A DNA stretch of 48,800 nt from Desulfocapsaceae bacterium (GTDB lineage: Bacteria; Desulfobacterota; Desulfobulbia; Desulfobulbales; Desulfocapsaceae), in assembly GCA_031292275.1 (NCBI GenBank), contig JARLHL010000021.1, positions 1 through 48,800 of the forward strand, read 5' to 3'. Shown here in pieces: positions 16,871-32,836 of the stretch. Numbering within the stretch: the stretch's first letter is position 1; each line of letters begins with the position of its first letter. The notes beneath the pieces were generated by a model that worked only from the letters and a program-made list of their open reading frames with translations, was not told where the DNA came from and made no database searches. The position numbers and the translations under genes were made by a program.

Positions 16871-18811
16871 ATGAGATACGCGGAGACAGGATATAACCTG
16901 GAAGTCGACCTCTCCCGGGGGATGGTCGAGAAGGTCATGACGGACCCGAAATTAACCGAGCGGCATCTCGGAGGCCAGGGGACTGCAGCAAAGATACTCT
17001 GGGACAGGGTCCCTCCGGAAGTTGATCCCCTCTCCCCCGACAATCTGCTTATTTTCAGTTCCGGTCTTCTGCTCGCCACGCCGGTGCCCGGGGCCAATCG
17101 GACCTCTGTTGACACCTTTTCGCCGCAGACCGGTCTGTACTCCCACTCGCTGTTCGGCGGGTTCTTCGGTCCCGAGCTCAAATATGCCGGCTATGACAAG
17201 ATCATCTTTCGCGGCAAGGCCCCTGGCCTGATCTATCTGTGGATCCACAACGACATGGTGGAGATTCGAGACGCCAGTCACCTTCAGGGGATGGGCGCCC
17301 AGAAAACAGCCCTGGTGCTCAAGGAGGAACTGAAGGAGCCCCACGCCCAGGTGGCGGCCATCGGCCTGGCCGGTGAGAACCGCGTTTACATGGCCAGTAT
17401 CGAACACGCCAATTCCAGCGCCTCCCGCGGGGTGGGCGTGATCATGGGGGACAAGCGGATCAAGGCGATCGTGGTGCGTGGGACCAGGGACGTCAATGTA
17501 GCCCGGCCCGCCGAACTGGCCGAGATCGCCATTCCCCTGTACCGGGAAATGTACGACAACAAGGACTGTGGCGACTCGATGGCTCACGGTGAGGGGGACG
17601 AATTTCATGTCGACAACTTCGCCTGGGGCAACGCCCGCTCCCGCAGAAAAAAATTCTTTTCCAAGGAACTGGAGCAGGAGTGGTTGGCGTTGGAGAAGAG
17701 ACTGCGGCAACGCTGGACCGGCTGTCATAACTGCCCGAAAGACTGTCATCAGGCGATCCACTACCCGGGACGGATGCCCTATTTCCAGAAGTGCTACAGC
17801 AAACTGACTTATGCCATGGGCTCCTTCGGTGACCTCAGCTTCGACTACGACATCATCGGTATCACCCAGGAGTACGGCCTGGATGCCTACTCGACACCGC
17901 AGGCCATCGCCTTTGCCATTGAGCTCTATGAGGCCGGTATCCTGACTGACGAGGATCTGCCGGACTTCCCGGCTCCCGACGGCGAAACCCCCGAAGGCTT
18001 CAAGATCCACGAGTCGCGCTTTTTTTACCTCGTCGAAAAGATCGCCCGGCGCGAGGGAATCGGCGACATTCTGGCCAACGGCATCTCTATGGCGGCCCGT
18101 CAGATCGGCAGGGGGGCCGAGGAGTACGACCACAACACCATCAAAAAGTTCGAGCAGGTGCCGATCAAGCTCAACTACGTCAATTACCCGTATTTCCTGA
18201 TGTACGCCACCGGCGAGAAGATGAATATCACCCAGATCGAGGGCTCTTTCCCCCAGATGGCGATTGCCGACATGAAGGAGCGGGAGAAGTTCGTCAAAAA
18301 TTGGGATGCCGCCCCGGAGCGGTTCAAGAAGTGGCTCCTGGAGTGGGAGCCGCGCACTAATCTGCCGCTGGATGCCGCGGTCCATGTCTGCGACTGGAAT
18401 GAGACGATGCACTATATTGACGACAGCATAGGGACCTGTGCCTTCCTCTCATCCTTCAGAGGGCAGTTTGGCGGCCGGCCGCCCTATCATATTCACAACC
18501 TTCCGGTATTCATTACCCGTGCATCAGGGGTAGAACTCGATACCGATACACTCTGGGAAGTCGCCAGACGGAACCGCAACCTGATTCGAGCCCTCAATAT
18601 CAGAAGGGGGATGAGACGAGCCGACGAGAGGCCTCCTGCCGATCATTGGAAGAGGCGGGAACCCGAAACTGAACAGAAGCTGCTCGATATGTACTACGAG
18701 TTCAAGGGGTGGAGCAATGACGGTATCCCCACCAGGGAAACCCTGGACCGTCTGGAACTCGATTACGTCAGCGAAGATTTCATCGCCAGGGGAATTCTAA
18801 GCGATGAGTAA
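16871..18811 (+). CDS. Divergent BamB-like tungsten aldehyde oxidoreductase-family protein
   Basis: The 646-residue protein is clearly related to BamB, the active-site subunit of class II benzoyl-CoA reductase. It starts MRYAETGYNLEVDLSRG and has FGPELKYAGYDK and SSASRG. It keeps the cluster cysteines (CHNCPKDC, residues 285-292), the likely fourth (GTCAFLSSF) and the tungsten-ligand cysteine position (C308 in QKCYSKL). The active-site segment differs from canonical BamB: positions equivalent to E251, H255 and E257 are M237, E241 and D243, while H260 is kept as H246, and a short stretch before it is missing. A different aryl-CoA or alicyclic substrate is therefore likely. It is followed by its own bamC-like gene and AAGGGG lies before ATG. 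Confidence 0.85.
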   Translation: MRYAETGYNLEVDLSRGMVEKVMTDPKLTERHLGGQGTAAKILWDRVPPEVDPLSPDNLLIFSSGLLLATPVPGANRTSVDTFSPQTGLYSHSLFGGFFGPELKYAGYDKIIFRGKAPGLIYLWIHNDMVEIRDASHLQGMGAQKTALVLKEELKEPHAQVAAIGLAGENRVYMASIEHANSSASRGVGVIMGDKRIKAIVVRGTRDVNVARPAELAEIAIPLYREMYDNKDCGDSMAHGEGDEFHVDNFAWGNARSRRKKFFSKELEQEWLALEKRLRQRWTGCHNCPKDCHQAIHYPGRMPYFQKCYSKLTYAMGSFGDLSFDYDIIGITQEYGLDAYSTPQAIAFAIELYEAGILTDEDLPDFPAPDGETPEGFKIHESRFFYLVEKIARREGIGDILANGISMAARQIGRGAEEYDHNTIKKFEQVPIKLNYVNYPYFLMYATGEKMNITQIEGSFPQMAIADMKEREKFVKNWDAAPERFKKWLLEWEPRTNLPLDAAVHVCDWNETMHYIDDSIGTCAFLSSFRGQFGGRPPYHIHNLPVFITRASGVELDTDTLWEVARRNRNLIRALNIRRGMRRADERPPADHWKRREPETEQKLLDMYYEFKGWSNDGIPTRETLDRLELDYVSEDFIARGILSDE

Positions 18812-18869
18812 GGCGGTTCTTCATAAAGATTCAAGGGAAGGACGAACACACAGCGGAAGGGAGAAACCA

Positions 18870-19421
18870 GTGAAGGATGGGACGAAATCTAGAATCATTA
18901 AACGGATCACAGTCAACCTGGAAAAATGTATCGGCTGCCGCGCCTGTGAGATGGCCTGTTCGGGATTTCACGCCGTGCCGAAGTTCAGCAGCACAAATCC
19001 GGCCCGCTCCCGGATCCGGGTGGTGGTGGAAGACCGCAAGGATATCTATATACCGATCCGGGCGGCAGGCTATACGCCGAGCGAATGTGAATCCAGGAAT
19101 ACCTATTCCATCAAGGACAAGAACTACCCGGAATGCGGCCTCTGCAATGCCTCCTGTCCGTCGAGAGAACTGTTCAGAGAGCCCGACTCGGGTCTTCCCC
19201 TCAAATGCGATATGTGTGAATCGGTTCCGCCGCTTGATGAGCCGATGTGCGTGCAGGTGTGCAGGTGCGGTGTCCTGACCTACGATGAATGGGAAGAGAG
19301 AAGAGATGACCAGGTGAATCGTGAGCAGATGGAGATTGGGCTGCAGTCGCTGGTGAACAGGTATGGAGTGGAGAAGGTGATGGAGAGGATTGAGCAATTC
19401 TCCCGGAACGTGAAGCGTTAA
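18870..19421 (+). CDS. BamC-like iron-sulfur electron transfer subunit (first copy)
   Basis: From GTG 18870 (183 residues) the protein has the BamC pattern CIGCRACEMACSGFH, PECGLCNASCPSRELFREPDSG, CDMCE and CVQVCRCGVL, enough cysteines for several [4Fe-4S] clusters. GTG 18870 has GGAAGGGAG upstream and gives an N-terminus like the second BamC. An ATG at 18804 overlapping the bamB-like stop would add 22 residues. BamC passes electrons to the W-containing BamB subunit, so this should be the partner of the divergent BamB-like protein. Confidence 0.88.
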   Translation: MKDGTKSRIIKRITVNLEKCIGCRACEMACSGFHAVPKFSSTNPARSRIRVVVEDRKDIYIPIRAAGYTPSECESRNTYSIKDKNYPECGLCNASCPSRELFREPDSGLPLKCDMCESVPPLDEPMCVQVCRCGVLTYDEWEERRDDQVNREQMEIGLQSLVNRYGVEKVMERIEQFSRNVKR

Positions 19422-20993: not shown

Positions 20994-23003
20994 ATGAGGT
21001 TCGCAGAAACTGGCTACAATCTCGAGATTGATCTGACCCGCGGCAATATTGAGCGGGTGGCCACCGCCCCCGAGGACAGTGCACTGTATCTTGGCGGTTT
21101 GGGGACGAACGCTAAGATCATGTGGGAGCGAGTGCCTCCAGAAGTAGACGCTTTTTCGCCTGACAACCTGCTGGTTTTCGGCACCGGCCTGTTGTGCGGA
21201 ACACCGGCCATCGGCTGCAACCGCACTATCGTCACCACCATCTCGCCTCAGACCCAGTTGCTTGCGTTTTCCATGATGGGCGGGTTCTGGGCCCCGGAAT
21301 TGAAGTACGCCGGCTACGACAAGGTGATTCTGCGCGGCAAATCTCCCGGACTGGTCTATGTGTGGATCAAGGACGACAAGGTCGAAATCCGTGATGCCTC
21401 TCACCTGAAAGGCAAAGGTGCTGTGGAAACGGCCAAACTGCTCTGCGAGGAACTTAAGGAGCCGAAGGCCCAGGTGGCGGCCATCGGCATGGCAGGCGAG
21501 AACCGGGTGTATTTTGCCTCCATTGAGCAGAGTCGCTCCAGCGCCAGCCGGGGCGGCCTTGGGGCGGTGATGGGCGACAAGGGAGTGAAGGCCATTGTGG
21601 TCCGAGGAACCAAGGATATTCATCTGGCCCGCCCGGCGGAATTCATGCACCTGTGCGACGAGGTGATGGACTATATCAAGTTTCGCGGTGAAAACCCGAT
21701 CCCCGGTGTCATACCTATTCTGGCCGTACTGGGCTCTCCCCAGGAGATGGCGATCCACGATGAGAAATGGCATACCGAGAACTTCATGTGGGGCAATGCC
21801 CGGGTGCGCCGTAAAGATTTCTGGAGCGAGGAAATCGCCCGGGAATGGACACGGACCATGGAAGAAATGCGCGGGCGGCTGATCAGCTGCTACAACTGCC
21901 CCATGCACTGCGGCGCCACCATTTCGCCTCCGGGAAAGCCGACGTATATGATGAAATGCTTTTCCAAGCTGACTTATACCATGGCGGCCTTCTCCGACCT
22001 GGCGTTCGGCCTGGGGATCGCCCAGAGCGCCACTGAGTACGGGGTTGACGGGTATTCCGCTCCCCAGGTCATGGCCTTTGCCCTGGAGCTTCTGGAGGCC
22101 GGTATCCTGACTGAGAATGATTTTCCCGGTATGCCCGAGGATAGCGAAGGGAGGTTTTACTGGCTGCTGGACCACATCGTCCGGCGGGAAGGCATCGGCG
22201 ATATCCTGGCCAACGGCACCTATTGGGCGGCCGGACAGATCGGCAAGGGCGCCGAGAAGTACGCCCACAACAACATCAAGAAACAGGAGCAGCTGCCTCT
22301 GAAGCTCTCCATGCTCAACCCTGTCTATTTTCTCATGTACTGCACCGGCGAAAAGCTGAACATCACCCAGATTGAAGGGCAGTTCCCCCAGGCGGCTTTC
22401 CCCGCGCGGGAAGACCGCGAGGCCTTCGTCAAGGACTGGTTCCAGGTGCCCGACGAAAAATTCAAGCAATATTTTCTGGACTGGGAAGTACGCGGCGAAA
22501 AATCGATACCCTCTTATCCCACGCCGGAAATGTGTTGCGATATCGTAGACTGGCAGGAACGGATGCACTACATCGACGACGCCCTGGGCATGTGTGCCGG
22601 TCTGTCGTCTTTTCATCTCAAGGCACCCTATCATATCCACAACTATCCGAAATTCATCTCTTCAGGGACCGGCTTCGATATGGACGAAGCAACATTGACC
22701 AAGGCAGCCAAGCGCTACCGTACCTTGGTGCGGGCCATCAATACCCGAAGAGGCATGCGCAGAAAAGACGAAAAGCCTCCTGCCGACCATTGGAAGAAGC
22801 GGTTCCCGGAACTGGAGAAGGAGCTTCTGGACACCTACTATACCTTCAAGGGCTGGAACGAGCAGGGTATCCCCACCGAAGAGACCCTGCGCGATCTGGG
22901 ACTGGACTATGTATACGAAGAGTTTTTGAAACGGGGCGTCTATTCGGACAATGGGGCTGCACCTTCCCAGGCAGGCCCGGCCATGACCGGCAAAGAGGTG
23001 TAA
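20994..23003 (+). CDS. bamB: Benzoyl-CoA reductase class II catalytic subunit BamB
   Basis: The 669-residue protein matches BamB of obligate anaerobes throughout. It has residues E251, H255, E257 and H260 in QEMAIHDEKWHTENF, the [4Fe-4S] cysteines C299, C302 and C306 in SCYNCPMHCG, and C322 in MMKCFSKL. As I recall, these are the active-site, cluster and tungsten-ligand positions of the Geobacter metallireducens structure. The enzyme contains W-bis-pyranopterin and reduces benzoyl-CoA to cyclohexa-1,5-diene-1-carbonyl-CoA without stoichiometric ATP hydrolysis. bamC, bamD, bamE and bamF follow at once. The long antisense ORF over it is a shadow. Confidence 0.96.
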   Translation: MRFAETGYNLEIDLTRGNIERVATAPEDSALYLGGLGTNAKIMWERVPPEVDAFSPDNLLVFGTGLLCGTPAIGCNRTIVTTISPQTQLLAFSMMGGFWAPELKYAGYDKVILRGKSPGLVYVWIKDDKVEIRDASHLKGKGAVETAKLLCEELKEPKAQVAAIGMAGENRVYFASIEQSRSSASRGGLGAVMGDKGVKAIVVRGTKDIHLARPAEFMHLCDEVMDYIKFRGENPIPGVIPILAVLGSPQEMAIHDEKWHTENFMWGNARVRRKDFWSEEIAREWTRTMEEMRGRLISCYNCPMHCGATISPPGKPTYMMKCFSKLTYTMAAFSDLAFGLGIAQSATEYGVDGYSAPQVMAFALELLEAGILTENDFPGMPEDSEGRFYWLLDHIVRREGIGDILANGTYWAAGQIGKGAEKYAHNNIKKQEQLPLKLSMLNPVYFLMYCTGEKLNITQIEGQFPQAAFPAREDREAFVKDWFQVPDEKFKQYFLDWEVRGEKSIPSYPTPEMCCDIVDWQERMHYIDDALGMCAGLSSFHLKAPYHIHNYPKFISSGTGFDMDEATLTKAAKRYRTLVRAINTRRGMRRKDEKPPADHWKKRFPELEKELLDTYYTFKGWNEQGIPTEETLRDLGLDYVYEEFLKRGVYSDNGAAPSQAGPAMTGKEV

Positions 23004-23005
23004 CT

Positions 23006-23548
23006 GTGGCAACGCAAAAAAAGATCGTCAGGACTATCAAGATCAATGCCGACCTGTGCAATGGCTGCCGGGCCTGCGAGATGATCTGTTCGGCCTTCCA
23101 CGCCCTGCCCAAATACAGCAGCAATAACCCGGCCCGAGCCCGGATCCGCGTGGTCCGCCATCCGCTGGAAGACATCTATATGCCGGTTTACGCCGGCGAA
23201 TCCGCCGGAGCGGAATGCGCAGGACGTGACAAATATGTGATCGGTGGCAAGGAGTACGAGGAGTGTGCCTTTTGCCGGGCGCCCTGCCCCTCCCGGAATG
23301 AATTCAGGGAGCCCGATTCCGGCATCCCCGTTCGATGTGATATGTGCGAAGGCGAAGACAAACCTCTGTGCGTCAAATGGTGTATCACCGATGCGCTGAC
23401 CCTGGAGGAGCGCGAGGAAGAGGTCGAGGTCGTGGAGCAACAGGAAGAGTTGGATATAGGATTGGAATCGCTGGTCGAAAAGCACGGCATCCAGAAGCTC
23501 CTGGACGCCGTGGCCAGGATGTCGTCGTCCTCAAAAATCTTTGAATAA
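23006..23548 (+). CDS. bamC: Benzoyl-CoA reductase iron-sulfur subunit BamC
   Basis: From GTG 23006 (GAGG 7 bp upstream, 2 bp after the bamB stop) the protein has 180 residues and the BamC cysteine pattern: CNGCRACEMICSAFH, CAFCRAPCPSRNEFREPDSG, CDMCEG and CVKWCITDAL. It is a polyferredoxin-like subunit that tightly binds BamB and relays electrons to it. The C-terminal helix is acidic (EREEEVEVVEQQEE). Strong similarity to the first BamC-like protein indicates duplication of a bamBC unit. Confidence 0.93.
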   Translation: MATQKKIVRTIKINADLCNGCRACEMICSAFHALPKYSSNNPARARIRVVRHPLEDIYMPVYAGESAGAECAGRDKYVIGGKEYEECAFCRAPCPSRNEFREPDSGIPVRCDMCEGEDKPLCVKWCITDALTLEEREEEVEVVEQQEELDIGLESLVEKHGIQKLLDAVARMSSSSKIFE

Positions 23549-23551
23549 GAC

Positions 23552-24757
23552 GTGCAGGCCTCCAAGAAAAGGACACAGGAACAAGTGGACACAGTAGCGG
23601 ACTTCAAAGAGATTGTCGAAGAGATCGAGGCCAAAGGCGGCGAGGCCTTCAAGCGCTGTTTTCAATGCGGGCTTTGCGATGCGGTATGCCCGTGGAACCG
23701 CCTCATCGACTTCAGTATGCGCCGGCTGGTCCGTCAGGCTGTCTTCGGCATGACGGACATCGAAAGCGGGGATATCTGGCGCTGCACGACCTGCGGCCGC
23801 TGCCCCCAGCAGTGTCCCCGAGACGTGCGGCAGATAGACTCCGGCCTGTCCCTGCGCCGGGTGGCCACGGAATACGACGTTTTCCCCGATGCCGTCAAGC
23901 CCTTGCGCTCGATCAGCGTCCATCTCACTGATGAGGGCAACCCCATGGGTGAAGACCGCGAGCAGAGAGCCGACTGGGCCAGCGGACTGGATGTCAGATC
24001 CTTTAGCGAGGAGATGGAAGTCCTCTATTTCCCCGGCTGCTACCTGAGTTACGATCCAAGGATGAAAAAGGTGGCCAGGGCCACCGCCGGTATTCTCAAC
24101 CGGGCCGGAGTCAATTACGGCATCTTGGGCAGCAGGGAGAACTGCTGCGGCGAGAGCATCCGCAAGACCGGCAACGAGGGACTCTTCAGACGCCTGGCCA
24201 GGGAAAACATCAAGACCTTCATCGATGAGGGGGTGAAACGGATCGTGGTCTCGTCCCCCCACTGTTACCATACCTTCAAAAACGAATATCCTGAGTTCAT
24301 GGTCCACTTCGACGTGGTGCACATCAGCCAGTTGATCAGTGAACTCATTGACCAGGGCCGCCTGGCCCTTTCCGGTGAATTTGCCCGCAAGGTCACCTAC
24401 CACGATCCCTGTTACCTGGGACGGCATAACGGGGTGTATGACCAACCCCGCAGCATTTTGCAGGGCATTGCCGGCCTGGAACTGATCGAGATGCCCGAGT
24501 CCCGCGGCAGAAGCCTGTGCTGTGGCGGCGGGGGCGGCCGCATCTGGGTCGAGACGGCCAAGGGAGAGCGCTTCTCCGATCTGCGGGTAAGGCAGGCCAT
24601 CGACCTCGGGGCAAAGGTGCTGGCCACCGCCTGTCCCTACTGCATTTCCAATTTTGAAGACAGCCGGCTGGCACTTGAGGACGAAACCGCATTGGAGATC
24701 AGGGATATCACTGAGATCGTCTTTGAGGCCATCCAGAAAACTGACGCAACAGGATAA
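23552..24757 (+). CDS. bamD: BamD, HdrD/HdrBC-like iron-sulfur protein
   Basis: The 401-residue protein has two N-terminal ferredoxin-type motifs ([13 protein letters not shown] and [14 protein letters not shown]) and two C-terminal CCG modules (YFPGC...ENCCGES and HDPCYLG...LCCGGGGGR). That is the layout of heterodisulfide reductase HdrD or fused HdrBC. In the class II reductase it is proposed to be part of the electron-bifurcating arm delivering low-potential electrons to BamBC. GTG 23552 is 3 bp after bamC. A second GTG at 23585 with AGGA nearby is an alternative start. Confidence 0.92.
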
Positions 24758-24767
24758 GGAAACAACC

Positions 24768-27700
24768 GTGGAAAATCAATCAATTGCACAGCGCTGTGAG
24801 GGGTTTGGGCAAGGCAGCTTTGGAGACGTCATGGTGGTCGGCGGCGGCATCAGCGGCATCCAGGCCTCGCTGGATCTGGCCACGGCCGGCTTCAAGGTCT
24901 ACCTGATCGAAAAGGGACCGGCTATCGGCGGTCACATGGCGCAGCTGGATAAGACCTATCCGACCAACGACTGTTCGATGTGAATTCTTTCACCGAAACT
25001 GGTCGAGGTCGGCCGGCATCCCAATATCGAAATTTTCACCTATACCGAAGTTGACAGCGTCGACGGGCAGGCAGGGGATTTTACCATCAGACTGACCCAA
25101 AAGCCGCGCTACATCATCGAAGACAGGTGCACCGGCTGCGCCACCTGCGTGGAGTATTGCCCGGTGGAGTATCCCGATCAATACAACCAGGATATCTCCA
25201 CTAATAAAGCGGTGCATATCTACTTCGCCCAGGCCATCCCTCTGATCACGTACATCGATGAAAGCTGCCTGTACCTAAAGGAAAAGAAATGCCGCATCTG
25301 TGAATCGATGTGTAAGAACGAGGCCATCGATCTGCACCAGATATCCCGGAAGATGGAACTCAAGGTTGCGGCCGTCATCCTCTCCCCCGGCTATGACGTC
25401 TTCGATCCGAAGGTCAGGGATGAGTATGGCTACGGCAGGCTCCAGAACGTGGTGACCGGCATGGACTATGAGCGGCTGCTGTGCGCCACCGGGCCGTACG
25501 AAGGCCGGATTCTGCGCGCATCGGACAAGCGGCACCCCCATAACATCGCTTGGATCCAATGTGTGGGTTCCCGGCGGGACAGCGAAGGGGACAACGACTA
25601 CTGCTCGGCCGTCTGCTGCACCTATGCCCAAAAACAGGTGATTCTGACCAAAGACCACAATAGCGGCGCTGCCTGCACCATCTTCCACAACGATGTCCGT
25701 TCCTACGGCAAGGGCTTCGAGGCCTACTACCAGCGTGTCCAGGAGTTTCCCGACGTCCGGTTTGTCCGCAGCTATGCCTCCATTGCGGGTGAAGACCCCG
25801 AAACCCGAAACGTGATTATCCGCTACGCCACCGAATCCCAAGGGGTGAAGGAGGAATCATTCGACATGGTGGTGCTCTCCGTCGGCCTGAACCCGCCCGC
25901 GGATCACAAGGCGCTGGCGAAAACATTCGGCATCGAGATCAACAGGCACGGATTCTGCCAAATCGATTCCGCCAACCCGATGGTGACCACCCGTCCGGGA
26001 ATCTTCGTCAGCGGCGCCTTCCAGGGACCGATGGATATCCCCGAGTCGGTCTTTACCGCCAGTGCCGCCGGATCCCAATGCGGCGAGTTGCTGAACTATC
26101 GCCGGGGCAAGCTGACCACCGACAGGATCTACCCGCCCGAAAGGGACTGTGCTGCCGACGAGCCGCGTATCGGCGTGTTCGTCTGCCACTGCGGGTCCAA
26201 TATCAGCAGGGTTGTGGATGTCCCCGACACGGTCGCCTCGATCCGGAGCCTGCCTCATGTGGTCCACGTCCAGGATCAGCTCTTTTCCTGCGCGACCAAC
26301 TCCATGAAGGCGATTGTTGATACCGTAAAAGAGAAGGCGCTCAACCGGGTGGTGATAGCGGCCTGCAGTCCCCGGACCCTGGAGCCGCTCTTTCGGGATA
26401 CCCTTCGTGAAGCAGGCATCAACAAGTACTATCTGGATATGGCCAATATCCGCGAACACTGCTCCTGGTGCCACGTGCGGGAGAAGGAGGCTGCAACGGC
26501 GAAGGCCAGGGACATCATTCGTATGTCGGTGGCCCGCTCAATTGACCTGGAGGCCCTGCAGGAGTTTGACCTCCCGGTCAACAAGGCGGCCTTGGTGGTG
26601 GGAGGGGGGCTGGCAGGCATGACCTGCGCGCTGTCCATCGCCGAACAGGGTCACGACGTCCACCTGCTCGAGCGGGAATCCGAGCTTGGCGGTACCGCCA
26701 AGAGGCTGCATTCCACCCTGGACGGCAGGGATGTCCAGGCCGATCTTACCAAACTCATCCGCAGGGTCTATAGCCATCCGGCAATCCATGTGTACACGGA
26801 CGCCGTCATCACCGAAGCCACCGGCTACGTGGGCAATTTTGTTACCCGACTCACCTCTGAGAAGGGTGTGACGGCCATTGAGCACGGGGCCGTGGTGATC
26901 GCCATCGGCGCTGAAGAGTACAGACCCGTCGAGTACCTGTACGGGGAAGATGAGCGCGTGCTGACCAATCTGGAGCTGGGTGAACGGATCGCGCGGGAAG
27001 ATGATACAGTCAGCCGGGCCCGGAGCGTGATGATGATCCAGTGCGTCGGCTGCCGCAACGAGGACCGCGGCTACTGCAGCCGGGTATGCTGCAGCCACAG
27101 CATCAAGAATGCCCTGAAACTCAAAGAAATAAACCCTGATATGGACGTTGCCGTAGCCTTCAGGGACATGCGCACCTATGGGTTCAACGAAACATACTAC
27201 CGTGAGGCCTCCCGTAAAGGCGTGCGCTTCATACGCTGGACACCGGCGGACCCGCCCGGAGTGGAAAGGGCCCGGGCAGGAGACGGCCGGCCCGTCCTGC
27301 AGGTGGCGCTGACCGACTCGGTTTTAGGCAAAAGACTGGCATTCGATGCCGACCTGCTGGTCCTGGCTGCGGCCGTCATCCCGCCTGAATCGGCCCAGGA
27401 GATTGCAAGTCTGTTCAAGGTGCCGCTGGGACCGGACGGCTTTTTTCAGGAAGGACATGTCAAATTGCGGCCGGTGGAATTTGCCGCCAGCGGCGTTTTT
27501 CTCTGCGGCTTGGCCCACTATCCCAAGCTTATCCCCGAGGCCGTCAACCAGGCCTACGGGGCGGCAGGCCGGGTCCTGGCCCTGCTGTCCAATGATATCG
27601 TGACCGTATCGGGAGCGGTCTGTGAGGTGCATGAACGAACCTGTACAGGCTGCGGGGCCTGCGCTGCGGTCTGCAGCTATGGCGCCATTGAATTCCGCAA

Positions 27701-27866
27701 GGCCAAACAGGGCCAAAAAGCCGTCGTCAACCCGGTGATCTGCAAAGGGGACGGCCTGTGCAACGCCGTTTGCCCCACCGGAGCCATTGTCCTGAAACAT
27801 TTCACGGATCGCCAGATTTTGAGCCAGATCGATGCGCTGATTCCCGAATCGACAGCCGCCAAATGA
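24768..27866 (+). CDS. bamE: BamE, HdrA-like flavoprotein, selenocysteine-containing
   Basis: The gene runs from GTG 24768 to 27866 through an in-frame TGA at 24981-24983. The residue there (position 72) sits in [19 protein letters not shown], where HdrA proteins have cysteine, so it is read as selenocysteine. A SECIS-like hairpin follows. With readthrough the product has 1032 residues: an FAD domain ([16 protein letters not shown]), inserted ferredoxin motifs ([12 protein letters not shown] and CRICESMC), a second flavin module ([18 protein letters not shown]) and a C-terminal 2[4Fe-4S] ferredoxin ([11 protein letters not shown] and [12 protein letters not shown]). HdrA is the bifurcating flavoprotein of heterodisulfide reductase, and BamE is thought to act likewise. 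Confidence 0.93.
24981..25012 (+). promoter_or_regulatory. Selenocysteine TGA and SECIS-like hairpin in bamE
   Basis: TGA 24981-24983 is followed by CCGA-AA-CT-GGTCG-AG-G-TCGG (24993-25012). It has a 4-bp lower stem, an asymmetric bulge, a 2-bp upper stem and a GGTCG loop holding the G-U expected for SelB binding. It begins 9 nt after the TGA, near the short end of the usual range. Confidence 0.75.
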
Positions 27867-27887: not shown

Positions 27888-28760
27888 ATGAGTAGAGAAC
27901 AAGTGTTCATCCCCAGAATCATCGGTTTCGTCTGTCACTGGTGAGTATACGGGGCGGCTGACCTGGCTGGAGTTTCCAGACTGCAATACTCGACCAATGT
28001 GAGAATGGTGCGTGTGATGTGCTCGGGCCGAATAGATTTGGCGCACATCCTGCGGGCCTTTGCCAAAGGAGCGGATGGTGTCTTCATCGGCGGATGCCGG
28101 CTGGGGGAGTGCAACTACCTCACCCACGGCAACTACCATGCCTTGAACCTTGTCCTGCTCTGCAAAAAGATCTTTGAGCATATCGGCTTAAATCCCCGGA
28201 GGCTGCAGATTGCCTTTATGTCCGGCGGAGAAGGCAATCTGTTTGCCGCAGAGGCAGACGATTTCAGCAAAACGATTAAAGAGCTTGGTTTCATAGGACA
28301 GGCTGACAGGATTGGGCCGTCACAGCTTGAGGCGGTCCTGGCGGATGTCGGCCGGCTGGTCCCTTTTATCACGATTGAAAAACATGCCAAGCTGACAGCC
28401 CGTCTCAAGGACGCCGCCGACTGGGAGAACCATTTCAGTCTTGCGGAGATAAAGCAGCTGTTCGACCAGGTGGCTTCATACGTGATCGATCCGGCAAAAT
28501 GCCAGGCCTGCATGATCTGCGCAAGGAGCTGTCCGGTGGAGGCCATCGAAGGCGGCAAGGGCCTGATCCATGTCATCGCTCAGGACAGGTGCATCAGGTG
28601 CGGCACCTGCCTGAATGCCTGTCCTCCCCGGTTTGGAGCTGTCACCAGGATTGACGGCGGTCCGGTACCTCCGCCTCTACCCGTTGACAAACGGACGATT
28701 GTCCGAAAGGGCGGCCAAGAGGGCAAGAAAAGCACCTCGACTGAAAGGGCGCTCCCATGA
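27888..28760 (+). CDS. bamF: BamF, MvhD-like selenoprotein with ferredoxin domain
   Basis: From ATG 27888 the frame runs through TGA 27942-27944 to 28760, 290 residues. The start reads MSREQVFIPRIIGFVCHW, then U19, then VYGAADLAGVSR. MvhD proteins have the motif CNWC-x-Y-x-GADLAG here, so the TGA replaces the second cysteine. The MvhD part (GGCRLGECNYLTHGNYHA) binds a [2Fe-2S] cluster and links hydrogenase or other donors to HdrA. The C-terminal half adds two [4Fe-4S] motifs (CQACMICARSCP and CIRCGTCLNACP). Without readthrough only 18 residues would be made. BamF was reported as Sec-containing in other benzoate-degrading anaerobes, from memory. Confidence 0.92.
27942..27979 (+). promoter_or_regulatory. 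Selenocysteine TGA and SECIS-like hairpin in bamF
   Basis: TGA 27942-27944 is followed 22 nt later by CTGGA-GTT-TCCAG (27967-27979), a perfect 5-bp stem with a GTT loop. Distance and the G-U loop fit a bacterial SECIS element. Confidence 0.72.
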
Positions 28761-28958: not shown

Positions 28959-29723
28959 ATGACGCTCTATCATCAGTTGACCAGAGATAACGGCATAGCC
29001 CGGATTACGCTCAACCGCCCGAAACACAATGTGTTGAACATCGATATGATGCAGGAGTTGACCGCCGTATTGGCTGAGCTGAACGCGGATGCCGGGGTCA
29101 AATGCGTGGTCATTGCCGCAGCAGGCGCCAGCTGGTGTGCCGGTGTGGAAGTCCTGGATCACAGGCCTGAACTGGCGCCGGACATGATCCGGGTCTTCGA
29201 CACGCTGCTCAGACAGATTGATGGCCTCGCCTTTCCGTCCATTGCCGCCGTCAGCGGGGCCTGTCTGGGGGGAGGAATGGAGGTCGCCATTGCCTGCGAT
29301 ATGGTCGTGGCCGCCAGATCCGCCGTATTCGGCCAGCCCGAGATCAAACTGGGCTTTCTGCCGCCCTATGCGGCGGTTCGTCTGCCCCGCCTGGTGGGGC
29401 CTGCAAAGGCCATCGAGATCTGCACCACCGGAAGGCGCTACGGTGCGGAGGCCATGCAGCAGATGGGAATTGTCTGCGATGTCTTTGACGAAGACACATT
29501 TGAACAAGGAGTATCCCGGTTGGTCAGGGAGATTCAGCAGGCCAGTCCCCTGATCCTCCGACTCAACAAAAAGGCAGTCAACAGCCACCTGGGGCTGACA
29601 CTTTCCGACGCTCAGGACAGCGTCAACGCCCTGTTCCTCAACCAGTTGATGAAAACTGAAGATACCCTCGAAGGTATAAGAAGTTTTGAAGAAAAACGTC
29701 GTCCCGCATGGAAAAACAGGTGA
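28959..29723 (+). CDS. dch: Cyclohexa-1,5-diene-1-carbonyl-CoA hydratase
   Basis: The 254-residue crotonase-family protein has the oxyanion-hole segments SWCAGVEV and ACLGGGMEVAIACDMV and the downstream FGQPEIKLGFLPPYA. It fits Dch/BamR, which adds water to the dienoyl-CoA made by benzoyl-CoA reductase, giving 6-hydroxycyclohex-1-ene-1-carbonyl-CoA. The call rests on length and on the operon, which has the reductase upstream and the matching dehydrogenase (had) and hydrolase (oah) downstream. It overlaps fdhD by 16 bp. Confidence 0.88.
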   Translation: MTLYHQLTRDNGIARITLNRPKHNVLNIDMMQELTAVLAELNADAGVKCVVIAAAGASWCAGVEVLDHRPELAPDMIRVFDTLLRQIDGLAFPSIAAVSGACLGGGMEVAIACDMVVAARSAVFGQPEIKLGFLPPYAAVRLPRLVGPAKAIEICTTGRRYGAEAMQQMGIVCDVFDEDTFEQGVSRLVREIQQASPLILRLNKKAVNSHLGLTLSDAQDSVNALFLNQLMKTEDTLEGIRSFEEKRRPAWKNR

Positions 29724-30562
29724 GCCTTTACCGTCCCCGGATGACCGCTGCCGGAGTGCGGCCCACCCATGCCATTTCGGTGAAAGACGAAAAAGGAGAG
29801 GTGAAAGAGGTTGAAATTGCAGGTGAATTGCCGCTTACGATCCTGGTCGACGGCCATGAAATCGTTACCCTGATGACGCTGGGCACCTACCCGGAGCTCC
29901 TCGCCCTGGGCTATCTGCGTAACCAGCGCCTGCTAAGCGAGATCGAAGCCATCGAATCCGTGCGGGTCGACTGGCAGACGGAATCGGTGCGGATACGGAC
30001 CAGAGACGGCAAAGGCGGGCAGCTCAGGGAGAAGCTGACGGGGCGGACGATCACCACCGGCTGCGGCCAGGGGACCATCTTCAGCTGCACCATCGACGGG
30101 CTCTATGCCGCGGAGGCATTGCGCCCCATTACAGTGCGCCAGTCGCAACTGAGCCGGCTGATGAAGTCTCTCGCCACCTATAACGAAATTTATAAATCCG
30201 CCGGCGCGGTGCACGGCTGCGCACTGTGCAGCACCGAAAAGGTGGAGATATTCGTTGAGGATGTCGGCCGCCACAACGCAGCCGACACCATCGCCGGAAA
30301 AATGTGGCTCGACCGGATTTCCGGTCTGAATAGAGTTTTTTACAGCACCGGCCGTCTCACTTCGGAAATTGTGATGAAAGCGGCCTTGATGGCAATTCCG
30401 GTCATTATCTCCCGATCCGGCATCACGTACATGGGGCTCACTCTGGCCCAGGATCTCGGCATGATCATGATCGCCCGCATCAAGGGCGATAAATTTCATA
30501 TTTATAACGGCCAGGAACATTTCATCCACGATTTGATTCCGATAAACGGCAACAACCCATAA
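29708..30562 (+). CDS. fdhD: FdhD family sulfurtransferase
   Basis: The 284-residue protein has the FdhD pattern: an N-terminal LPLTILVDGHEIVTLMTLG, a central HGCALCST with the C-x2-C motif, VEDVGRHNAADTIAGKM and a late SRSGITYMG. FdhD transfers sulfur to the molybdenum cofactor of formate dehydrogenase. Here no formate dehydrogenase is nearby. The gene lies inside the pathway, overlapping dch by 16 bp and 11 bp before had. Its target may be the tungsten cofactor of one or both BamB proteins, which would need a terminal sulfur-type ligand. That link is inference. Confidence 0.88.
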   Translation: MEKQVSLYRPRMTAAGVRPTHAISVKDEKGEVKEVEIAGELPLTILVDGHEIVTLMTLGTYPELLALGYLRNQRLLSEIEAIESVRVDWQTESVRIRTRDGKGGQLREKLTGRTITTGCGQGTIFSCTIDGLYAAEALRPITVRQSQLSRLMKSLATYNEIYKSAGAVHGCALCSTEKVEIFVEDVGRHNAADTIAGKMWLDRISGLNRVFYSTGRLTSEIVMKAALMAIPVIISRSGITYMGLTLAQDLGMIMIARIKGDKFHIYNGQEHFIHDLIPINGNNP

Positions 30563-30573
30563 GGAACGGGCCT

Positions 30574-31647
30574 ATGACAACAATGATATCCTGGCAGATG
30601 GTAGCCCCCAACCAAGCTTTGGGGCGTGCGGAGGCGCCCCTTCCCGAGCCGAAGGCAGGGGAAGTCCTGCTGAAAGTCAGCGGCTGCGGCGTATGCCATA
30701 CGGATTTGGGCTTTTTCTATGACGGTGTTCCCCTCAAATCGGCCCTGCCGTTGACCCTGGGACATGAGATCAGCGGCATCGTCCAGGCGGCCGGTCCCGG
30801 CGCCGAGGCCTGGAGGGGATGCGCCGCCGTGGTCCCGGCTGTAATGCCTTGCGGCGAATGTGAGGCCTGCCGGGAAGGCCGCGGCAATATCTGCGGGGCC
30901 CAGAAAATGCCGGGCAATGACATCCAGGGCGGGTTCGCCAGCCATATCGTGGTGCCGGCCGGACAGCTCTGCAAAATTCCCGTTGATTCGAACATGAAGC
31001 CAGTCGGTACGGCAGATATCTCCCTGGCGGAGCTGTCCGTTGTTGCCGATGCCATCACCACCCCCTATCAGGCAATCGTCGAAGCAGGTCTCACTGACAA
31101 GGACCTGGCCGTGTTTGTCGGCGTGGGGGGCATGGGCGGCTTTGGTGCCCTGCTGGCCAAGAGTTTCGGCGCCGCGGTGGTGGCCATCGACGTGGATCCG
31201 CTGAAACTCGAAAATCTGTCTTCCCATGTGGATGCAACTTTCAATGTCCAGGATATCTCCTTCAAGGACCTCCGCAACAAGGTCTTCGGCGTGGCCAGGG
31301 AGACGGGCCGGTCGCGCATCCATATCAAGATTTTCGAAACCTCCGGCACCGCCGCCGGTCAGAAGACCGCCTTCGGGCTCTTAACCTTCGGCGCCCACCT
31401 GTCCATCGTCGGCTTTAGCCTCGATACCGTGAACATTCGTCTGTCCAACCTGATGGCCTTCAATGCCACGGTGCGGGGCAACTGGGGATGTAAGCCTGAA
31501 TATTATAGGCCGGTTGTCGATCTGATCCTCGCCGGCAGGATAAATATCAAGCCGTTTGTCAAAACCTTCCCGCTGGATTCCATCAACGAGGTATTTGCGA
31601 TGACCCACCAGCGTAAGATCAACCAGCGTCCTATCATGGTCCCTTAA
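30574..31647 (+). CDS. had: 6-hydroxycyclohex-1-ene-1-carbonyl-CoA dehydrogenase
   Basis: The 357-residue zinc-type alcohol dehydrogenase has GCGVCHTDLGF and LGHEISG (catalytic zinc), CGECEACREGRGNIC (structural zinc) and VGVGGMGGFG (NAD binding). It fits Had/BamQ, which oxidises the alcohol formed by Dch to 6-oxocyclohex-1-ene-1-carbonyl-CoA using NAD+. AGGA lies before ATG. Position directly before oah supports the assignment over other medium-chain dehydrogenases. Confidence 0.9.
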   Translation: MTTMISWQMVAPNQALGRAEAPLPEPKAGEVLLKVSGCGVCHTDLGFFYDGVPLKSALPLTLGHEISGIVQAAGPGAEAWRGCAAVVPAVMPCGECEACREGRGNICGAQKMPGNDIQGGFASHIVVPAGQLCKIPVDSNMKPVGTADISLAELSVVADAITTPYQAIVEAGLTDKDLAVFVGVGGMGGFGALLAKSFGAAVVAIDVDPLKLENLSSHVDATFNVQDISFKDLRNKVFGVARETGRSRIHIKIFETSGTAAGQKTAFGLLTFGAHLSIVGFSLDTVNIRLSNLMAFNATVRGNWGCKPEYYRPVVDLILAGRINIKPFVKTFPLDSINEVFAMTHQRKINQRPIMVP

Positions 31648-31702: not shown

Positions 31703-32836
31703 ATGAAAGACTTACATTGGCTTCCTCGAGAATCCGGACACAAAGACCATCACCTGTGGAGCGGCGATATCTTTTCGAGTGAGGCCCCCGGCGTAATTTT
31801 TGAGAAAAAACCGATACGCGACCCTCAGGGCAAGGCGGTGGACGGACTCTATTCGGCCTGGGTCACCCTGAACAATCCCAGGCAATACAATTCCTATACT
31901 ACCGAGATGGTCAAGGCGGTGATTGCCGGTTTTCACCGCGCCTCGGCCGATTCTTCGGTGGTGGCCTGCGTATTCACCGGTGCCGGCGACACGGCCTTCT
32001 GCACCGGCGGCAACACCAAAGAGTATGCCGAATACTATGCGAAACGGCCTAATGAATACGGCCTCTACATGGATCTGTTCAACGCCATGGTCGACACCAT
32101 CCTGTTCTGTAAAAAGCCGACCATCTGCCGGGTCAACGGCATGCGGGTCGCCGGCGGTCAGGAAATCGGGATGGCCACCGATATTACCATTTCCAGCGAC
32201 CTGGCAATATTCGGTCAGGCCGGCGCCAAACACGGCAGCGCCCCGGACGGGGGCAGCACCGATTTCCTGCCATGGATGCTGCCCATGGAGCTGGCCATGT
32301 GGAACTGTGTCTCCTGCGAGATGTGGAGCGCCTACAAGATGTATCGCCTTGGCCTGATCTCCAAGTGTCTGCCGGTCATCAGAGACAGCGGCAAGTGGGT
32401 GCGCAATCCCGCCGTGCATATCGATTCCTATGTCGCCGACGGCGAGCTGGTATATGGCGAGTATAAAACCGGTGAAGCCGCCAAGGAGGCACGCGCCTAT
32501 GTGAAGGAGGCCACAATCGATTTCGAGTTGCTCGACAAGGAGGTCGACAGGGTTCTTTGGACCTATACCAATCTCTTTCCCGGCTGCCTGATCAAGAGTA
32601 TCGAGGGGATCCGGTTGAAGAAGAAGTTTTTCTGGGATCAGGCCAAGGTAATCAACCGCCACTGGCTGGCCGCCAACATGTCCGGTGAGGCCTTTCTGGG
32701 CTTTAATGCGTTTAATACTAAGAAAATTACCGGTCAGGACACCATTGATTTCATTGAATATCGCAAGCGCCTTGCAGCTGGAGAGCCTATGGATACCGCA
32801 TTGATGGCGGCCGTTATGGGAAGCCCGAAAGGATAA
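31703..32836 (+). CDS. oah: 6-oxocyclohex-1-ene-1-carbonyl-CoA hydrolase (BamA)
   Basis: The 377-residue crotonase-family protein matches BamA/Oah, the marker enzyme of anaerobic aromatic degradation. It has the long N-terminus, LNNPRQYNSYTTEMVKAV, FCTGGNTKEYAEYYA, RVAGGQEIGMATDIT and AKHGSAPDGGSTDFLPW. It adds two waters and opens the ring to give 3-hydroxypimelyl-CoA. A strong AAGGAG ribosome-binding site precedes ATG 31703. The length (about 377) and the PDGGSTDF segment separate it from ordinary enoyl-CoA hydratases. Confidence 0.95.
   Translation: MKDLHWLPRESGHKDHHLWSGDIFSSEAPGVIFEKKPIRDPQGKAVDGLYSAWVTLNNPRQYNSYTTEMVKAVIAGFHRASADSSVVACVFTGAGDTAFCTGGNTKEYAEYYAKRPNEYGLYMDLFNAMVDTILFCKKPTICRVNGMRVAGGQEIGMATDITISSDLAIFGQAGAKHGSAPDGGSTDFLPWMLPMELAMWNCVSCEMWSAYKMYRLGLISKCLPVIRDSGKWVRNPAVHIDSYVADGELVYGEYKTGEAAKEARAYVKEATIDFELLDKEVDRVLWTYTNLFPGCLIKSIEGIRLKKKFFWDQAKVINRHWLAANMSGEAFLGFNAFNTKKITGQDTIDFIEYRKRLAAGEPMDTALMAAVMGSPKG

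Follow-up and report, generated by a model that had tools for sequence, protein, structure and literature searches.

In a Desulfocapsaceae genome, a gene for an HdrA-like protein is interrupted by a TGA within its reading frame. This raises the question of whether the codon ends translation or encodes selenocysteine (Sec), and of what selenium might do at this position. The window (the whole stretch of DNA that was analyzed) is 48,800 nucleotides in length. Within it bamE lies at 24768-27866 on the forward strand, starting with GTG and encoding 1032 amino acids when its one internal TGA is read as Sec. From reading of the frame and comparison between loci that TGA, at 24981-24983, is codon 72, at the end of the CxxU motif C69-S-M-U72. 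It is the sole interruption of the frame, with 960 codons open beyond it. A sequence-only reading made previously had described a frame open on either side of the TGA, which is borne out, and had expected standard annotation to give a 905-residue protein with a false start; using the standard code, the list of open reading frames indeed yields only GTG 25149-27866 from this frame, encoding 905 amino acids.

A domain profile search finds FAD-binding stretches toward both ends of BamE, together with ferredoxin-type domains. The protein matches solved HdrA subunits with E values of 1.1e-175 (5odc) and 1.3e-174 (8rvu), and among NCBIfam models HdrA2 scores best (932.6 bits, E 1.7e-280), though under its curated cut-off of 1100. 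Residue 72 is cysteine in the three solved proteins with printed alignments, and it aligns with Cys197 of 5odc, a position counted by hand. The assignment of BamE as HdrA-like made from the letters alone thus agrees with the structural matches, and with the operon context of a class II benzoyl-CoA reductase.

The genes bamB, bamC, bamD, bamE and bamF are present in that order, all on the forward strand. bamB (20994-23003) belongs to the AFOR family and is of BamB2 type by profile search and tree. It is followed by a bamC-like open reading frame found by domain search (22532-23548 as listed, with the true start probably near 22980), and by a bamD-like gene with CCG and Fer4 domains (23552-24757). 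bamF lies at 27888-28760. Beyond it domain and family profiles identify, on the same strand, an enoyl-CoA hydratase family gene (28959-29723), fdhD (29708-30562), 6-hydroxycyclohex-1-ene-carbonyl-CoA dehydrogenase (30574-31647; TIGR03201, 454.4 bits) and 6-oxocyclohex-1-ene-carbonyl-CoA hydratase (31703-32836; TIGR03200, 550 bits), the last two above cut-off. Upstream there is a second AFOR-family bamB, of BamB1 type by profile search and tree (16871-18811, within 16871-19421), followed by a bamC-like gene found by profile search (18804-19421), all in the forward orientation, and an AMP-binding gene of the CoA ligase family. The NADH module bamGHI was not found among the 20 window open reading frames scanned, and was not seen immediately after bamF. 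The predicted genes make this a class II benzoyl-CoA reductase locus.

Decoding of the TGA at codon 72

Codon 72 is TGA or a cysteine codon in 81 of 81 BamE-type loci, the window included; the set comprises the matches listed, with cysteine loci added on purpose, so that the proportions of Sec and Cys in it are not prevalences. Sixteen loci were found by scanning named genomes. Fourteen have TGA at codon 72, one (L077) has TGT, and in another (L079) the motif was not found. The 14 TGA loci have between 84.6 and 64.9% identity with the window BamE, and their hosts include Desulfoprunum benzoelyticum, Desulfobulbus sp. Tol-SR, Desulfosarcina widdelii and Dethiosulfatarculus sandiegensis. In a 68-row HdrA tree, from which five loci with DNA common to others were left out, all 15 BamE rows, each of them Sec, cluster together with support of 100/100. 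We have used only this cluster from the tree, which has long branches (L032, L008, L077, L092 and L005). Three genomes of the same family (L035-L037) have bamE DNA in common with L065, L068 and L067 respectively, and are therefore not independent. The 14 further include metagenome bins carrying the labels Chloroflexi, Rhodospirillales and Bacillota (L073, L074 and L076), where Sec-BamE suggests either lateral transfer or mis-binning.

These comparisons bear on whether the TGA is a sequencing error, or bamE has been split or has decayed. In favor of this is the draft state of the genome, which consists of 114 contigs. However, the same TGA is found in the 14 named records, which come from different projects and include the complete chromosome of Desulfosarcina widdelii, and the 960 further open codons argue against a split gene. 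We consider the chance of either to be negligible.

A UGA can be read as Sec only where the cell has the means to do so. Because the machinery models make weak matches in many control genomes (14 of 14 for tRNA-Sec, selB and selD), we counted only matches above cut-off. In the genome carrying the window these are SelA (630.5 bits), SelB (369.9 bits), SelD (356.4 bits) and a single tRNA-Sec, scoring 73.3 bits where the gathering score is 47, which ARAGORN also reports as tRNA-SeC with anticodon tca. Thus selA, selB, selC and selD, whose absence would have spoken against Sec, are all present. A second SelD (L027, contig C64) scores 353.3 bits, also above cut-off, and, unlike the first, has one internal TGA, reading CGUAAK. 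The same genome contains a further HdrA-type fragment (L030, contig C71) with DCAMU, thus TGA at the same site; its other HdrA copies with the motif (L002, L005, L008, L031 and L032) have cysteine there.

The UGA might instead be read through, with tryptophan or another standard amino acid put in, or serve as a programmed stop that regulates bamE. Against this, the codon is exchanged only for cysteine across the BamE-type loci, SelABCD are present, and bamE itself terminates with TGA. We regard this alternative as highly improbable, and Sec as the better reading.

A hairpin that falls within the published rule for bacterial SECIS elements is predicted in bamE at 24999-25016 on the forward strand, CUGGUCG-AGGU-CGGCCGG, with a stem of 7 bp beginning 15 nt past the TGA and an AGGU loop (25006-25009) 22 nt past it. 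Like other bacterial SECIS elements it has the loop G, although its sequence is family-specific and matches no Rfam family: there was no gathering-level match in the window, and none up to E 5 in 24960-25060. The sequence-only reading had predicted a SECIS-like hairpin here, correctly, while placing its start at 9 nt and giving it a GGTCG loop, neither of which agrees with the hairpin found. Folding energy was considered as proof of the element and set aside, being weak in the longer stretches (z = -0.70 for 46 nt and -0.14 for 57 nt); for the 25-nt core z is -2.38, with 3 of 200 shuffles equally good. The case for the hairpin consequently rests on conservation.

That conservation takes two forms. 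Synonymous variation was scanned across 15 bamE orthologues in nine-codon windows having enough amino-acid-invariant columns (n = 172), and is lowest at the hairpin, the bottom two windows beginning at codons 77 and 78. A single codon is used in three of the six usable amino-acid-invariant columns at codons 77-85, compared with nine of 406 elsewhere in bamE, although codon bias rather than RNA structure could explain part of this constraint. The hairpin also follows the Sec codon. With a threshold of -5 kcal/mol or better, chosen in this analysis, a search by the bacterial SECIS rule finds a hairpin at all 44 distinct HdrA loci with Sec versus 4 of 25 Cys loci. The exact 18-base hairpin is present in 51 of 53 TGA loci and in none of 25 Cys loci, counted over 78 BamE-type loci after three that failed a stricter motif (L130, L132 and L151, all Cys) were dropped from the 81. 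Both TGA loci with a variant retain all seven pairs: in L074 the outer C-G pair becomes A-U and a loop base is altered, and in L160 U.G becomes U-A. Among Sec-HdrA groups more widely (L001, L038 and L082-L099) two registers are seen past the same Sec codon, with the loop at +22 or +27 nt and mostly containing GGU. We read these predicted registers as SECIS turnover inside one gene family.

The TGA at 24981 very probably encodes selenocysteine. The proposal that BamE is a selenoprotein is supported by the open frame, by the genes for Sec insertion, by a TGA and a partly compensated hairpin that are both conserved between loci, and by the synonymous constraint. SelB carrying Sec-tRNA(Sec) would recognize the AGGU-loop hairpin 22 nt past the UGA, and selenocysteine would be inserted as residue 72 of the 1032-residue protein. 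BamE itself would be an HdrA-like, probably electron-bifurcating subunit of the class II (tungsten) benzoyl-CoA reductase, and the same insertion would occur in bamF at UGA 27942. We hold this account, bamF included, with high confidence as a reading of the sequence.

Predicted selenocysteine in BamF and at a second position of BamE

bamF encodes an MvhD/FlpD-like subunit (PF02662, FlpD; E 3.2e-30), and is the second selenoprotein gene predicted in the operon, one on which the sequence-only reading was silent. From frame reading and comparison between loci, its in-frame TGA at 27942-27944 on the forward strand is the Sec codon of C-H-W-U, within GFVCHWUVYGAADLAG. CHWU fits the CxxU motif given for MvhD/VhuD in the available text of a 2026 review (PMC13188914), and in the accessible part of a Geotalea daltonii paper from 2026 BamF is the subunit linked to selenium (PMC13119186). 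Past the TGA lies a predicted hairpin, CUGGA-GUU-UCCAG (27967-27979, same strand), with a folding energy z of -0.45. An exact copy of this 13-base hairpin occurs in 55 of 64 Sec bamF genes and in none of four Cys bamF genes. Nine Sec genes have variants. Five (L074, L107, L138, L139 and L141) swap the second pair from U-A to G-C, changing both sides; L138, L139 and L141 are alike, so these are not five separate events. The other four (L148, L153, L155 and L167), read by eye, lose one pair.

The state of BamF was compared with that of BamE. Among named isolates, Desulfoprunum benzoelyticum and Desulfosarcina widdelii have the TGA in bamE as well as in bamF. For the 53 Sec-BamE loci bamF is readable in 48, and it is Sec in all 48; in three the motif was not found, and two are cut by the contig end. 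At the 25 Cys-BamE loci bamF is Sec in 16 and Cys in four; it was not found by motif in four, and is cut in one. Failure to find bamF here refers to the motif, and at least L134 does have the gene, detected by tblastn in a larger region (L175).

Two relatives of the window bamE, L157 (G213) and L158 (G529), have a second in-frame TGA, at a motif of the N-domain that reads CYUG, equivalent to C473-H-C475 in the window, where bamE has no second Sec codon. They come from different genera of one family, and are 80% identical to each other. CxC is found at this site in 138 of 140 distinct loci examined, and G249, in the same family, has a cysteine codon. Rule-based hairpins past the second TGA have energies of -17.1 (L157) and -13.8 (L158) kcal/mol; among 103 BamE-type loci having CxC, seven reach -10 kcal/mol and none -13.8. 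A degenerate DNA pattern for the motif was found in two of 395 genomes of the phylum, only those of L157 and L158.

Residue 72 and the two BamB types

The sequence-only reading had the Sec replacing a cysteine of an iron-sulfur cluster. A direct [4Fe-4S] ligand at residue 72 would shift the potential of the cluster, and such a role is suggested by the cluster-rich nature of HdrA and by the position of the residue in the cysteine-rich DCSxU motif. HdrA has six clusters, however, and the other conserved cysteines nearly suffice for them, leaving the claim unsupported. In a four-sequence alignment C121/124/127/131, C167/175/178/182 and C265/279/283/284 are conserved, at least four in each group; the N-domain set C473/475/508/533/565/568 and C959/962/965/969 likewise provide at least four each. 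We take Cys386/399/403/404 of 5odc to be one set of cluster ligands. Only the last site has three, C992, C998 and C1002, with Asp995 in the fourth place. This census, weak evidence that comes from alignment, makes a ligand role less likely, and we consider that role unlikely. No statement on a ligand role for residue 72 was found in the literature passages searched. At the last ferredoxin-type site (residues 992-1002, nucleotides 27741-27773), Asp995 is found where HdrA of 5odc has cysteine, and it is invariant in the four-sequence alignment.

We tentatively favor a different role, in which Sec72 and its CxxU partner would act as a redox-active pair within the first flavin domain, on the electron path between the [2Fe-2S] center of BamF and the flavin, with selenium speeding or protecting the entry of electrons. 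By analogy with MvhD and HdrA, electrons would pass from BamF to the BamE flavin (PMC6019823, in the part available). Sec could plausibly tune the bifurcation, as the sequence-only reading had proposed.

The window contains both BamB types, and we examined whether these relate to selenium. Twenty regions of 17-20 kb were surveyed, from 11 genomes chosen for having Cys copies; nine of the regions have Sec-BamE and eleven Cys-BamE. In all nine Sec-BamE regions the upstream bamB is closer to the window BamB2 (20994). Among the eleven Cys-BamE regions a bamB closer to BamB1 (16871) is present in six and one closer to BamB2 in two, and in three no bamB was found; both with a BamB2-like gene belong to one family, f93. 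In a quick 28-row BamB tree the two types separate with an SH-aLRT of 100. Nineteen of 21 BamB2-type rows go with Sec-BamE, and six of seven BamB1-type rows with Cys-BamE, the seventh being the window BamB1, in the same operon as a Sec-BamE. Given this choice of genomes, the link with BamB type is a lead and not a frequency. Two bam clusters are found in many genomes; in the surveyed regions (L169-L188) Sec-BamE is paired with BamB2-type subunits, and Cys-BamE mostly with those of BamB1 type, except in f93.

These data would fit a stepwise addition of selenium along the Bam electron path, marking two grades of class II enzyme. BamF would be Sec in both; Sec-BamE would occur only on top of Sec-BamF and serve BamB2, with Cys-BamE mostly serving BamB1; and one family would have gained a second BamE Sec at the N-domain CxC, a likely cluster ligand. 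We offer this as a possibility to which we give somewhat less than even weight. Were it correct, selenium supply would set which isoenzyme works. If the Sec/Cys split follows BamB type, isoenzyme pairs within the same genome would allow the role of selenium in flavin-based electron bifurcation to be asked directly.

Comparison with known systems

Peters et al. in 2004 reportedly described Sec proteins in the benzoate metabolism of Desulfococcus multivorans. The closest precedent is the 2016 genome paper for that organism (PMC5109826). In its available text BamE (dmul_C24500/10) is one of five genes in which a Sec UGA precedes a SECIS, and the cluster likewise has two bamB copies; bamF is not among the five Sec genes listed there, whereas the window has a Sec codon in both bamE and bamF. 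The authors propose that the subunit active in reducing benzoyl-CoA is BamB2, although BamB1 was detected with all aromatic substrates (PMC5109826).

The class II benzoyl-CoA reductase of Geobacter metallireducens has the same order from bamB to bamF in the passages available (PMC1924859, PMC12016498), but in the window bamGHI is not seen directly after bamF. The selenoproteome list of 2006, as far as its text was accessible, includes FrhD and no HdrA for G. metallireducens (PMC1794560), and for this reason its BamE is presumably the Cys form.

Within the literature searched, largely without subscription papers and in part only as passages, we found no mention of Sec occurring jointly in BamE and BamF, of a link between BamB type and the Sec/Cys state, or of a BamE with two Sec residues. 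The two Sec codons here point to a selenium requirement, in these sulfate reducers, of two neighboring subunits of the electron-input module, which serves ATP-independent reduction of the benzene ring. Both genes are split or given a wrong start by ordinary gene calling.

In the accessible part of the 2006 study, the table of bacterial selenoprotein families contains HdrA and FrhD/MvhD, often clustered (PMC1794560). Several HdrA and MvhD genes with Sec are known from Desulfobacterium autotrophicum (PMC2702500, part of text). For HdrA the 2026 review states the motif as plain CxxU, and the portion of its table available lists one Sec (PMC13188914), whereas two relatives of the window bamE have a second Sec codon. 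BamE fits the Sec-HdrA family in its homology to HdrA, a CxxU motif with TGA where homologues have cysteine, the hairpin, and the adjacent Sec FrhD/MvhD often found in that family. The Sec-BamE described here is a new example of this long-known family, in which BamE was already listed as a Sec gene in 2016.
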